DNA of 64,000 bases from an uncultured Candidatus Saccharibacteria bacterium. GTDB taxonomy: Bacteria > Patescibacteriota > Saccharimonadia > Saccharimonadales > Saccharimonadaceae. A program made the position numbers and the translations under genes. Numbering within the stretch: the stretch's first letter is position 1; each line of letters opens with the position of its first letter. The notes under the pieces were generated by a model that did not search any database, was not told where the DNA came from, and saw only the letters and a list, made by a program, of their open reading frames with translations. Of the stretch, positions 11,601 through 37,300 are shown in pieces. The DNA lies in NCBI GenBank assembly GCA_937859515.1, contig CALMAK010000011.1, positions 1 through 64,000 of the forward strand, given 5' to 3'.

Positions 11601-11970
11601 GACCGTCACTGATTACAAAACAGGCCATCCCGTACGCGATTGGAAGGGCAAGACTGATTACGAAAAGATTAAGCTTCATAAATATCGCCAGCAGCTGATG
11701 TTTTATAAATTACTCGTCGAGCATTCGCGTGATTATGGGTCATACTCAGTCATAAAAGGTGTCTTGCAATTTGTCGAACCTACTAAAGATAGGCAGATTC
11801 TTGCCCTCGAGGATGATTTTCAGGCGGCAGAGCTGGATGAATTCCGTCAATTACTGACAGTTGTATGGAAAAAAATTACCACGCTTGACCTTCCGAATAT
11901 TGACACCTACGAACCAAATTACAAGGGTATCATGGCATTTGAGCGCGATTTAATTGACGAGAATATATAG
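8647..11970 (+). CDS. UvrD/Rep-type helicase fused to PD-(D/E)XK nuclease
   Basis: 1107 residues. SF1A helicase motifs appear in order: I (GPGTGKT, about 30-36), Ia (TFTESGAHAMRERL), II (VDEFQDTS, near 326), III (GDDDQAIYSFQGA), IV (LTDNYRS), V (HKSKGLEFDTVF, near 708) and VI (FFVAATRAKKEL). The last ~230 residues carry a RecB/AddB-like nuclease with NLDLVDID and VTDYKTG (about 970-990), followed by a basic/aromatic QLMFYK helix. This architecture unwinds DNA 3' to 5' and cuts it, as in AddAB-like end processing and recombination. No partner subunit is nearby. TACAAT (8634-8639) ends 7 nt before the ATG, so it is probably leaderless. Confidence 0.92.
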   Translation: MNFESRYKTLNDNQRLAVDAIDGPVMVIAGPGTGKTELLGMRAANILKKTDTLPESILCLTFTESGAHAMRERLASIIGKDAYKVAIHTFHSFGTEIINQHSEFFYHGANFRPADDLSSYEIIKKILDELDYSNPLAGKMNGEYTHIRDITTAISELKKSGLTSDELLQVLDSNDLVLDTSEAKLQDVFSARIGATTLARLVPVAGEIADITPPALPPGLTPLTNTIALSLAHAIDEATENNSTKPITAWKNRWMEKNAEGTPVFKDRKRHEKLRSLSYVYFQYLARMQEAELYDYDDMILRVVHAMEVFDDLRFNLQEKYQYIMVDEFQDTSLAQMRILDNLTNNPAQEDTPNILVVGDDDQAIYSFQGADISNILSFRDRYSKVKLITLTDNYRSATPILNTARSIITQGADRLERYIDELDKTLTPHRDGTTEVSLLSAPTTSDERSWMIHEIASRLKRGDDPQEIAVLARRHHEIIALLPYFAAAGIPVSYERRDNVLEITPVLLIEQLARIIVLLGDQKLQEADALLPELLSHPAWRIPPSDLWKLSTTAYDSHMRWFDALATMKQFTPLHQWLIEQIAASHYQPLEYILDTLIGTPSATTPEIESDDTDDAFAEPTPTPFTSPLYEYFFGAEALAGDPNEYLTYLEGLRTIRSALRDYQSDTQPTLATFIAFIDLYRETGGVLTSARQVGTSSAAAIQLMSAHKSKGLEFDTVFITGAVDSMWGERVRGKSRLISYPENLPLSPAGDSPDERLRLFFVAATRAKKELLISYAEANDDGKPLDRAGFLLSIGDAQPITQKSDAANLRSSAEQRWYTAVTTPSSDLHELLGPTLERYKLSATHLGNFLDVTRGGPQTFLLNNLLRFPQAMSAPAAYGSAIHGTLQRAHAHLTATGKYRATEDIIRDFETLLADYRLDDATREALLQKGIDTLGIFLTEKYHSFTPNQKSELGFANQQSIVDGAHLTGNLDLVDIDTSSKTMTVTDYKTGHPVRDWKGKTDYEKIKLHKYRQQLMFYKLLVEHSRDYGSYSVIKGVLQFVEPTKDRQILALEDDFQAAELDEFRQLLTVVWKKITTLDLPNIDTYEPNYKGIMAFERDLIDENI

Positions 11971-11982
11971 ATATGCTATAAT
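11954..11982 (+). promoter_or_regulatory. Promoter TTGACG-17-TATAAT
   Basis: The -35 (11954-11959) and -10 (11977-11982) are spaced exactly 17 nt and lie over the end of the helicase gene. Transcription would begin near 11989, with no open reading frame immediately downstream. Confidence 0.65.
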
Positions 11983-11988
11983 AAAAGA

Positions 11989-12068
11989 GTAGGCGTTTGA
12001 GAAGTGCGTGCTCTGGCAAGCAGAAATCCCTGATTGACAGTGTTCGCACCTCTCCGTCTCGTTTTTTT
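11989..12068 (+). ncRNA. Putative ~80-nt hairpin RNA with its own promoter and terminator
   Basis: Downstream of a near-consensus promoter, 11999-12008 pairs with 12045-12054 (10 bp, one mismatch). The helix continues inward through CTG/CAG and CAA/TTG pairs, and the unit ends in seven T residues (12062-12068). I compared the loop with the conserved SRP, 6S, tmRNA and RNase P cores and found no match. It could be an independent small RNA or an attenuator for the element that begins at 12069. Confidence 0.45.
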
Positions 12069-12229
12069 GACAAGAGATAGTGTACCATGTTGTGGCCACA
12101 AACCACGATAAGCTGGGCGCCGCCCCTCCTGGGGAAAAGCGGCCTCTGGGGGTGCCGCGATAAAGAAGTGGTGATACGAAACACAACGACGTGTTTATAA
12201 TCGCAACTTCGGGCGGCGCCCGCCAAACC

Positions 12230-12291
12230 GTCGCTGCTGCGCACATTCCTCTGACGACAATGGTGTCGTTACGAATGTGCGCAGCAGCGAC
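12230..12291 (+). promoter_or_regulatory. 19-bp hairpin in leader of zinc-finger gene
   Basis: An exact 19-bp stem (12230-12248/12273-12291) encloses a nested 6-bp hairpin (12254-12259/12264-12269). It starts ~30 nt after a TATAAT hexamer (12194-12199) and ends 23 nt before the ribosome binding site. Likely roles are mRNA stabilisation, attenuation or protein binding. Confidence 0.55.
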
Positions 12292-12329
12292 ACCTCATTC
12301 CTACAAGACCACCCGAGGAGGTGATCACT

Positions 12330-12494
12330 ATGGCATGTACGCCATGTCGCAACCTGGGCTACACCGGCAGCAGGTCGTGTTCGACCTGCTCGGGTACCGG
12401 CGATACCGCCAAGGTCGGGGAAGTCTCGAAGACCTGCACCAAGTGTGCTGGCTCCGGGCGCCTCTGTTCCACGTGCGGTAAAGCCGACGTGTAG
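12330..12494 (+). CDS. Orphan DnaJ-type zinc-finger microprotein, 54 aa
   Basis: Four CXXC pairs occur at residues 3-6, 17-20, 36-39 and 46-49. The second and third are exact CXXCXGXG motifs (CSTCSGTG and CTKCAGSG), the signature of the DnaJ/Hsp40 cysteine-rich domain, which binds two zinc ions. No J domain or substrate domain is attached: the whole protein is the zinc finger. GAGGAGGTGATC gives a near-perfect Shine-Dalgarno site 6-7 nt before the ATG. About three quarters of codons end in G or C, against roughly half in neighbours. It may be a zinc-binding adaptor, a chaperone modulator or an RNA-binding peptide; function is unknown. The coding call is strong because the motif spacing is preserved. 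Confidence 0.85.
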   Translation: MACTPCRNLGYTGSRSCSTCSGTGDTAKVGEVSKTCTKCAGSGRLCSTCGKADV

Positions 12495-12559
12495 CAGTCA
12501 TATGAGACGTTTTACCCCCGGGTAACTCGAAAAAAGGACATACCGCACTATCTCTTGTC

Positions 12560-12610
12560 CATCTCACTGGTTTCATATACTTATGTGAACCCAGTGAGAT
12601 GTTTTTGTTT
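12560..12610 (+). terminator. Rho-independent terminator of zinc-finger unit
   Basis: An 11-bp stem (12560-12570 with 12591-12601) encloses further pairing in the loop and is followed by TTTTTGTTT. It lies immediately outside the right inverted repeat. Confidence 0.8.
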
Positions 12611-12627
12611 GGTACAATATAATGAGT

Positions 12628-36337: not shown

Positions 36338-37300
36338 ATGACAAAAGACGAGACTACCACTACCGTTAACGGCCAGGCCTACGATACACAAACAGGGTTA
36401 CCTGTTGCTCGCACATCTGCCCATACGCCCACAGGACAGACCACGCCTCACCGCCCGGCAACGGCGCTTCATGCCTCGACTCAAAAGTCAAAGACCCTCA
36501 GGCGCGTTCCCACCAAAAAGCCCGAAGCAAAAAAGCCTGACACCCTCAGCCCGTTGGTTGCACGACGACCACAACGACGTTCATTAGACATTGCCAGACA
36601 CCCTCAGGTAAAAAAGACCGCCACAACACCTCTTAGGGCGCCGGAAACTCCGGATATCGCCCCTCGCACACACCCTCACGTAGAGAAAGCGAACCAACGC
36701 CTCGGGGCAAAGAAGACCACTCATCATCCTGCACCCCACAAGACACCGACACCCAAAGAGATAAAGAATGCCGAGATTGCACGCGCGCTCGAGAAGAGCA
36801 CTTCCGGCAAAAAGGAAAAGCACATCAAGAGACAGTCGACCACGCGCCGCAAAAAGATTACTCGTTTTAGTATTATTGGTGCTGCAATTGCCATTATTAT
36901 CGGTGTAATCGTATGGATTAACCTTCCATCGCTATCGGTCCGTTTCGCTGCTTCACAAACTGGTGTTTCTGCAACCGTCCCGCACTACACCCCCGAGGGA
37001 TTCCGCATGCAGTGGCCAGTCGGAACAAAAGACAACTACGTCTCCATTACGTACACCGCACACGACACAGATACATCTTTTACATTAGGTCAATCAAACA
37101 GTTCATGGAACTCGGACGCCGTTCGATCGATGGTCGAAGAAGACTCAGAAGGACGATTCTTAACCTCACGTGATCGTGGCATTACCGTCTATACATACAA
37201 CGGCAATGCAGCCTGGGTTAACAGAGGTATCCTCTATACCATCGAAGGCACCGCCGATCTGTCAAGTGATGACATCATGCGCATCGCTAACAGCTTATAG
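36338..37300 (+). CDS. Membrane protein with DUF4367-like extracytoplasmic domain
   Basis: 320 residues. The first ~175 are Thr/Pro/Lys/His-rich and likely disordered. A basic stretch and one membrane helix (~176-196) lead to a ~120-residue domain with YVSITYTAHDTDTSFTLGQSNSSW and GITVYTYNGNAAWVNRGILYTIEG, matching DUF4367-type domains. DUF4367 is often found on anti-sigma or envelope-sensing proteins; the role here is unknown. It is followed at once by a 33-bp palindrome. Confidence 0.8.
   Translation: MTKDETTTTVNGQAYDTQTGLPVARTSAHTPTGQTTPHRPATALHASTQKSKTLRRVPTKKPEAKKPDTLSPLVARRPQRRSLDIARHPQVKKTATTPLRAPETPDIAPRTHPHVEKANQRLGAKKTTHHPAPHKTPTPKEIKNAEIARALEKSTSGKKEKHIKRQSTTRRKKITRFSIIGAAIAIIIGVIVWINLPSLSVRFAASQTGVSATVPHYTPEGFRMQWPVGTKDNYVSITYTAHDTDTSFTLGQSNSSWNSDAVRSMVEEDSEGRFLTSRDRGITVYTYNGNAAWVNRGILYTIEGTADLSSDDIMRIANSL

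Follow-up and report, generated by a model that had tools for sequence, protein, structure and literature searches.

What kind of element occupies the interval between uvrD and dus in a Saccharibacterial genome, bounded by exact inverted repeats and carrying a gene for a very small DnaJ-type zinc-finger peptide? The question is raised by a stretch of 64,000 nucleotides from an uncultured Candidatus Saccharibacteria bacterium (contig CALMAK010000011.1, positions 1 to 64,000; hereafter the window), for which an earlier note had proposed either a large RNA with an embedded peptide gene or a miniature mobile cassette. Comparison with related genomes points to the former reading: the terminal repeats covary as an RNA helix, referred to as P1, and the peptide has homologues. 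Judged from sequence, the locus looks like an undescribed, single-copy Saccharibacterial RNA family, whose function we infer from its architecture. Saccharibacteria have genomes of about 0.5–1.2 Mb, and despite these tiny genomes most members of the window's family spend 0.3–1.4 kb at one site on an RNA that is absent from Rfam.

Architecture of the unit in the window

The folded unit spans positions 11954–12612 (about 0.6 kb) between genes that were named uvrD and dus from their sequences rather than by a family search (Table 1). The earlier note had drawn its limits at 12069–12559. This core stands, while the limits have to be widened, since the promoter, the 5′ hairpin P0 and the terminator are part of the same conserved unit. 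Within the core, the elements described before were all recovered, i. e. the exact 14-bp inverted repeats, the perfect 19-bp hairpin, the 11-bp helix, which is part of the MFE fold, and the 54-residue gene with its four CXXC pairs and strong Shine–Dalgarno (SD) site. The RNA fold of 12069–12559 has a z of −10.8 and that of 12069–12330 a z of −8.9; in neither case was any shuffle equally stable. About 250 nt of folded sequence separate the left repeat from the gene. Downstream, dus begins at 12622 and has its own promoter-like site.

Table 1. Features of the folded unit between uvrD and dus (positions in the window)
Feature	Position	Strand	Remarks
Sigma-70-type promoter TTGACG-17-TATAAT	11954–11982	+	TG ahead of −10 (extended −10); overlaps uvrD end/stop
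5′ hairpin P0	11991–12059	+	MFE fold; double changes among species
T run after P0	12062–12068	+	
P1 5′ arm ("left TIR")	12069–12082	+	exact 14-bp inverted repeat; covariation
P2 interior helix, 5′ arm GGGCGCCGCCC	12115–12125	+	11 bp; MFE fold
Imperfect 20-nt hairpin within P2	12165–12210	+	repeat search; MFE fold
P2 interior helix, 3′ arm	12211–12221	+	MFE fold
Hairpin with perfect 19-bp stem	12230–12291 (arms 12230–12248/12273–12291)	+	
CACC	12310–12313	+	able to pair with GGTG (12320–12323) of the SD site
SD site AGGAGGTGAT	12316–12325	+	strong
54-aa peptide gene, DnaJ-type	12330–12494	+	four CXXC pairs, two of them CXXCXGXG
Small hairpin TTACC/GGTAA, then CGAAAAAAGG	12512–12538	+	possible H-type pseudoknot before P1′, by eye
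P1 3′ arm (P1′, "right TIR")	12546–12559	+	exact 14-bp inverted repeat; covariation
Terminator hairpin, conserved internal loop	12560–12601, T run to 12606	+	covariation; model R1

Several of these features recur among relatives. Of 36 members, 27 have the same promoter element ahead of P1, where mononucleotide shuffles would give 1.3, and a motif like the small hairpin followed by CGAAAAAAGG is also found in L022, L048, L141, L137, L138 and L154. A scan of the window for terminator-like structures did not pick up the hairpin downstream of P1′, which is supported by the comparison across species.

Covariation and distribution of the closing helix

The P1-type unit occurs in more than 36 Saccharibacteria. 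In an alignment of P1 from 28 genomes (A5), 10 of 13 pairs are changed on both sides, so that the compensatory substitutions on which the earlier note had staked its proposal do exist; examples of such variants are GACAGAGATAGTGA/TCACTATCTCTGTC, GACAGGAATAGTGC/GCACTATTCCTGTC, GACAGGCACAGTGA/TCACTGTGCCTGTC and GACAGAGGTAGTG/CACTACCTCTGTC. The covariation score of this alignment is 0.62, compared with 0.206 ± 0.020 after shuffling and at most 0.23 with a slid partner. As the rows of A5 were picked partly by arm pairing, the corresponding figure of 96.9% paired is not independent, whereas covariation and constant position are, as is the search with the 3′-end model described below. A blind search for the best long-range helix, with no sequence requirement, gave P1 for over 30 intervals; the 5′ arm always starts 60–160 nt past uvrD. 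The 3′ arm nearly always lies directly before the terminator, C(G/A)TCTC... Double changes also affect all nine pairs in the stem of P0 (18 species) and 15 of 17 pairs of the terminator hairpin (20 species). Judged by these substitution patterns, the inverted repeats form an RNA helix and are not transposon ends, and the locus is a predicted transcription unit with promoter, P0 and terminator, in which P1 closes a folded domain of 300–950 nt.

The DNA upstream of dus was read at 137 loci, at 111 of which uvrD and dus are both present (two genomes are counted twice among these, as L025/L232 and L104/L149). Ten of the 111 intervals measure at most 51 bp, one has 240 bp and 100 have 320–1415 bp. 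The fold z is below −3 in 21 of 23 intervals tested, with values of −5 to −17 in most. Empty sites, for which the earlier note had suggested looking, are thus represented by the ten short gaps, in which the unit is absent (L025/L232 of genome G006, L136, L206, L212, L220, L222, L223, L233 and L037). Its absence between adjacent uvrD and dus means that the unit is dispensable for these neighbours.

Only one other genome of the window's genus was found (G001, locus L022), and it carries the unit in the same place. Promoter, P0, P1, SD site, gene and terminator are kept, while the interior from the left arm to the gene is nearly unalignable with that of the window. The L022 interior is again strongly folded (z = −6.7), and where P2 would lie it has a helix with another sequence (5820–5832/5941–5953); the 19-bp hairpin has no counterpart there. 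In L130, which belongs to another genus (g42; family and genus numbers are anonymous group labels), the same place holds a P1 of 14 perfect base pairs, a 17-bp hairpin in the interior and a CXXC peptide of smaller size. Given the near absence of interior conservation within the genus, this comparison speaks for the strictest selection being on the ends, the gene and its SD site.

For a search beyond these intervals, a covariance model restricted to the 3′ end (R1, right arm plus terminator) was run against 295 genomes of the order and 295 of the class, two samples that overlap. Each genome with a match has one copy, apart from G144 with two; most of the matches fall in the window's family, others in f10, f18 and f31; as R1 detects only the P1 structural class, these counts are lower bounds for the locus as a whole. 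The second match in G144 (G144:C1:512606–512668) is the weaker of the two. In these other families the unit is not at uvrD–dus: with gene names assigned by sequence inspection, it adjoins pheT-like and ABC-transporter genes in L259, L264 and L266 and stands beside an ABC-transporter gene in L257; L262 has it in yet another place. A complementary upstream 5′ arm (12 or 13 of 13 positions) is present in 30 of 32 contigs with R1 hits, some of them from other families and other loci, and includes new P1 variants such as GACAGGCGTGAT/ATCACGCCTGTC and ACAGGTGATGTA/TACATCACCTGT. When G–U is counted, 12 complementary positions of 13 are also attained by 19 of 160 shuffles, so that single cases are weak, but the set as a whole is not. 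A pattern built on P1′ and the terminator matched four named contigs, all from Candidatus Saccharibacteria.

These data bear directly on the notion of a miniature mobile cassette with transposase sites as its terminal repeats. Exact repeats flanking a variable cargo, the empty uvrD–dus sites and the other loci used in other families would all be in line with mobility. Yet the two repeats of a copy change together, from species to species they differ in the manner of an RNA helix, they lie inside the transcription unit, and the promoter, P0 and terminator outside them are conserved along with the unit. The unit is at uvrD–dus throughout the family, nearly always as one copy per genome, and no transposase is associated with it. 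Direct repeats sought by eye gave no target-site duplication at the window copy; likewise, the P1′/terminator pattern had no match in IMG/VR viral contigs, and the window DNA had none in a collection of phage records. Mobility in this form hence appears scarcely credible.

A second structural class, without the P1 motif, occupies the same interval in L137, L138, L149 (identical with L104), L150 and L154. Four of these five loci share GATTCACT...GCAGA(A/G)CC elements, and the class also has tRNA-like folds. In addition, L137 and L138 contain a pseudoknot-like CGTC-TA-GCCC-GACG-TAAAA-GGGC arrangement, with a similar one in L154. A 106-bp element in L091 (G023:C31, about 1448–1553), with the inverted repeat GAGAGATACTGCTC/GAGCAGTATCTCTC and a AAAAACGGG motif, resembles a very small P1-closed RNA but may have arisen by chance. 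Searching for further members with the pattern AAAAANRG-N-TATCTCT returned mostly chance matches.

Exchangeable small genes and their possible control by folding

The peptides encoded in the window and in L022 are 64–66% identical and share all eight cysteines, as does a more distant homologue from another genus (g16), which is encoded between uvrD and dus in L104. Homologues with conserved cysteines, which the earlier note had proposed to look for, are thus available. With a dN of 0.39 and a dS of 0.90 between the window and L022, the gene is, as far as substitution rates tell, under constraint. PF00684, the DnaJ cysteine-rich domain, aligns with 47 residues of the window peptide (E 0.036, 14.8 bits, below the curated cut-off of 32.7). 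The two have in common four CXXC pairs, two of them CXXCXGXG, whereas the window protein lacks a J domain and has only 54 residues. Pattern and conservation of the four pairs are as for two zinc ions. That such a domain should be known only inside larger proteins, as had been assumed, is incorrect: anti-TRAP (RtpA, YczA) is a free-standing small DnaJ-like zinc protein with CXXCXGXG-type pairs (PMC2896485). Anti-TRAP differs from the window peptide in having two CXXC pairs instead of four, and the latter has no TRAP-type context and is encoded in a folded RNA. The NCBIfam RtpA model does not match the window peptide and reaches the L104 homologue with E = 9e-4 (19.3 bits, far below its 65-bit cut-off). 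None of ten peptides tested matched a curated family, an AlphaFold prediction based on three sequences was not usable (pLDDT 44), and searches of genome contigs and viral contigs with degenerate peptide patterns found nothing. A CXXC peptide gene with no dus after it occurs in L113 (G039:C3, about 36400–37100), where the leader resembles that of L104 in having a GCACGAG hairpin and a T run after it.

Across the family, P1 encloses one small gene of about 40–60 codons, often with a nine-base SD match. Among 99 intervals, 24 carry a CXXC zinc-type gene and 29 a gene for a small hydrophilic, probably helical peptide (e. g. ...AKQAGSWGDSARSALERDKNR or ...NMQSVRNADHEARR...), 19 have others with a strong SD site and 27 none that was recognised, according to a crude classification whose filter drops some real genes (such as that of L141) and lets in a few doubtful ones. 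Going by their sequences, the cargo peptides are not one family; rather, unrelated mini-proteins replace each other within the same frame.

This exchange also weighs on the idea of a leader RNA that senses a metabolite or an ion, e. g. zinc, and thereby controls the downstream peptide gene. In the window copy, P0 and its T run ahead of the gene could form an attenuator, and the product would bind metal, judged by its motif. The T run is not kept in most relatives, however, non-zinc peptides occupy the same frame, and a leader sensor would have no use for a helix such as P1 that involves the distant 3′ end. Sensing of this type is accordingly very improbable.

A more plausible means of control is offered by the SD site itself. 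Among 34 strong SD sites of relatives, 24 are preceded by a CACC that is pairable with their GGTG, compared with a mean of 7.4 and a maximum of 13 in shuffled sequences; a general test for upstream anti-SD sequences is weak for all candidate genes and clear for the strong-SD subset. By sequence complementarity, the SD site can thus form a local hairpin in which it would be hidden. In addition, the P1 5′ arm is a better complement to the sequence upstream of it in the same species than to the corresponding stretch in others, none of 200 swaps being as good. This suggests an alternative early pairing of the arm, although relatedness of the species confounds the comparison.

Hidden SD sites are known from type I toxin–antitoxin mRNAs of the hok and aapA kind, in which end pairing silences a small toxic peptide and an antisense RNA completes the control. 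The unit shares with these mRNAs a long-distance 5′–3′ helix, a possible metastable 5′ hairpin and a small gene inside, the mechanism being known for aapA3 (PMC6733600), and the fast turnover of its cargo would suit such a system. On inspection, though, the peptides are hydrophilic and either Cys-rich (zinc-finger) or helical-basic, unlike type I toxins, which are hydrophobic membrane peptides; the RNA is longer and may contain tRNA-like folds; and the unit is single-copy at one fixed place in most species, whereas type I loci are scattered and multi-copy. A toxin–antitoxin function is therefore improbable.

Instead, the best explanation of the locus, to which we give about an even chance of being right, is a conserved end-paired RNA that doubles as the folding-controlled mRNA of an exchangeable mini-protein, with putative roles for both RNA and protein. 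P1 and the local SD hairpin would keep the full-length RNA closed and poorly translated, a logic resembling that of the hok and aapA mRNAs (PMC6733600). During synthesis, the P1 5′ arm may pair first with the upstream CUCU..., as in other end-paired mRNAs, and opening or cutting of the closed form would then allow the peptide to be made. The window peptide, as a minimal two-zinc DnaJ-type finger, would most likely be an RNA- or protein-binding factor, perhaps for its own RNA. Conceivably, RNA and peptide act together as a pair, but with cargo peptides from more than one family, any binding of theirs to the RNA scaffold is guesswork.

tRNA-like folds and relation to known RNA families

ARAGORN detects tRNA-like folds on the transcribed strand of 27 of 99 intervals, with none on the other strand and none in five rounds of shuffling, and the Rfam tRNA model scores the embedded folds with up to 70 bits. 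Among 36 P1 members, eight have such a fold inside P1; the window copy has none by either ARAGORN or the Rfam tRNA model. Many of the anticodon loops are AAA, two- or four-base or other A34 types, next to some normal-looking ones (GGG, GCC, UAC), so that many of these folds appear unlikely to decode. Their presence argues for a role of the RNA as well. Where they exist, tRNA-processing enzymes could cut the RNA at these positions.

The folds call to mind the ornate large non-coding RNAs of the GOLLD, ROOL or OLE type. By analogy, the folded RNA would be the product, perhaps as a multimer or ribonucleoprotein, with the small gene encoding a protein partner and the tRNAs or tRNA-like folds being a client or part of the RNA. 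GOLLD and ROOL are strongly folded bacterial RNAs of 0.5–0.9 kb that contain or associate with tRNAs; they are found near tRNA islands, with tRNAs in the GOLLD linker (PMC12286853). Size, strong folding and embedded tRNA-like folds of the unit agree with this analogy, and GOLLD similarly combines one conserved end with a variable part. However, the window and 18 related loci have no Rfam match to GOLLD, ROOL or OLE, none of which has been described with a gene in a loop, as enclosed here by the end-to-end helix. Moreover, the unit is chromosomal and family-wide rather than phage-borne, many of its tRNA-like folds have odd anticodon arms, its interior sequence is not conserved within one genus, and the folds are missing from the window copy and most P1 members. 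Overall, we regard membership in this group of RNAs as rather unlikely.

tmRNA invites a similar comparison, as the unit likewise has a gene inside a folded, end-paired RNA and tRNA-like folds in some of its members. It differs in that its gene has its own start and SD site and that its ends do not form a tRNA-like part. Identity with tmRNA was rejected: the window has no tmRNA match, and a true, separate tmRNA lies elsewhere in the same genome (G000). In the Rfam search of the window and the 18 related loci, no family was found except tRNA, one weak tmRNA match to a tRNA-like fold and sub-threshold matches. Weak matches to Ms_IGR-8 (minus strand, 26 of 44 bits) and DUF805b were taken as chance.

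Beyond folding-controlled translation, the locus could be an end-paired RNA scaffold, inherited vertically at one fixed place on the chromosome, that swaps unrelated mini-protein genes and tRNA-like modules over evolution and acts as a ribonucleoprotein. We put this forward tentatively, as a proposal that could well turn out wrong. If true, targets might be, for example, ribosomes, tRNA pools or the interaction of episymbiotic Saccharibacteria with their hosts. The locus is considered novel because the combination of end-paired scaffold, exchanged cargo genes and tRNA-like modules matches no family tested; its novelty would be smaller if folding-controlled translation were the only function. 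To our knowledge, no equivalent has been described of a frame with kept ends in which unrelated mini-proteins are swapped and tRNA-like folds are often enclosed, and the literature on structured RNAs in Saccharibacteria and Patescibacteria, subscription journals apart, yielded nothing relevant. The family offers a testable entry to the little-explored RNA biology of episymbiotic bacteria, in which the covariance model makes it searchable.

Two relatives display unusual arrangements of the tRNA-like folds. The uvrD–dus interval of G137 (L143) contains three of them (Gly GCC, Pro GGG and Val UAC) among large hairpins, and L033 has one with a long insertion.
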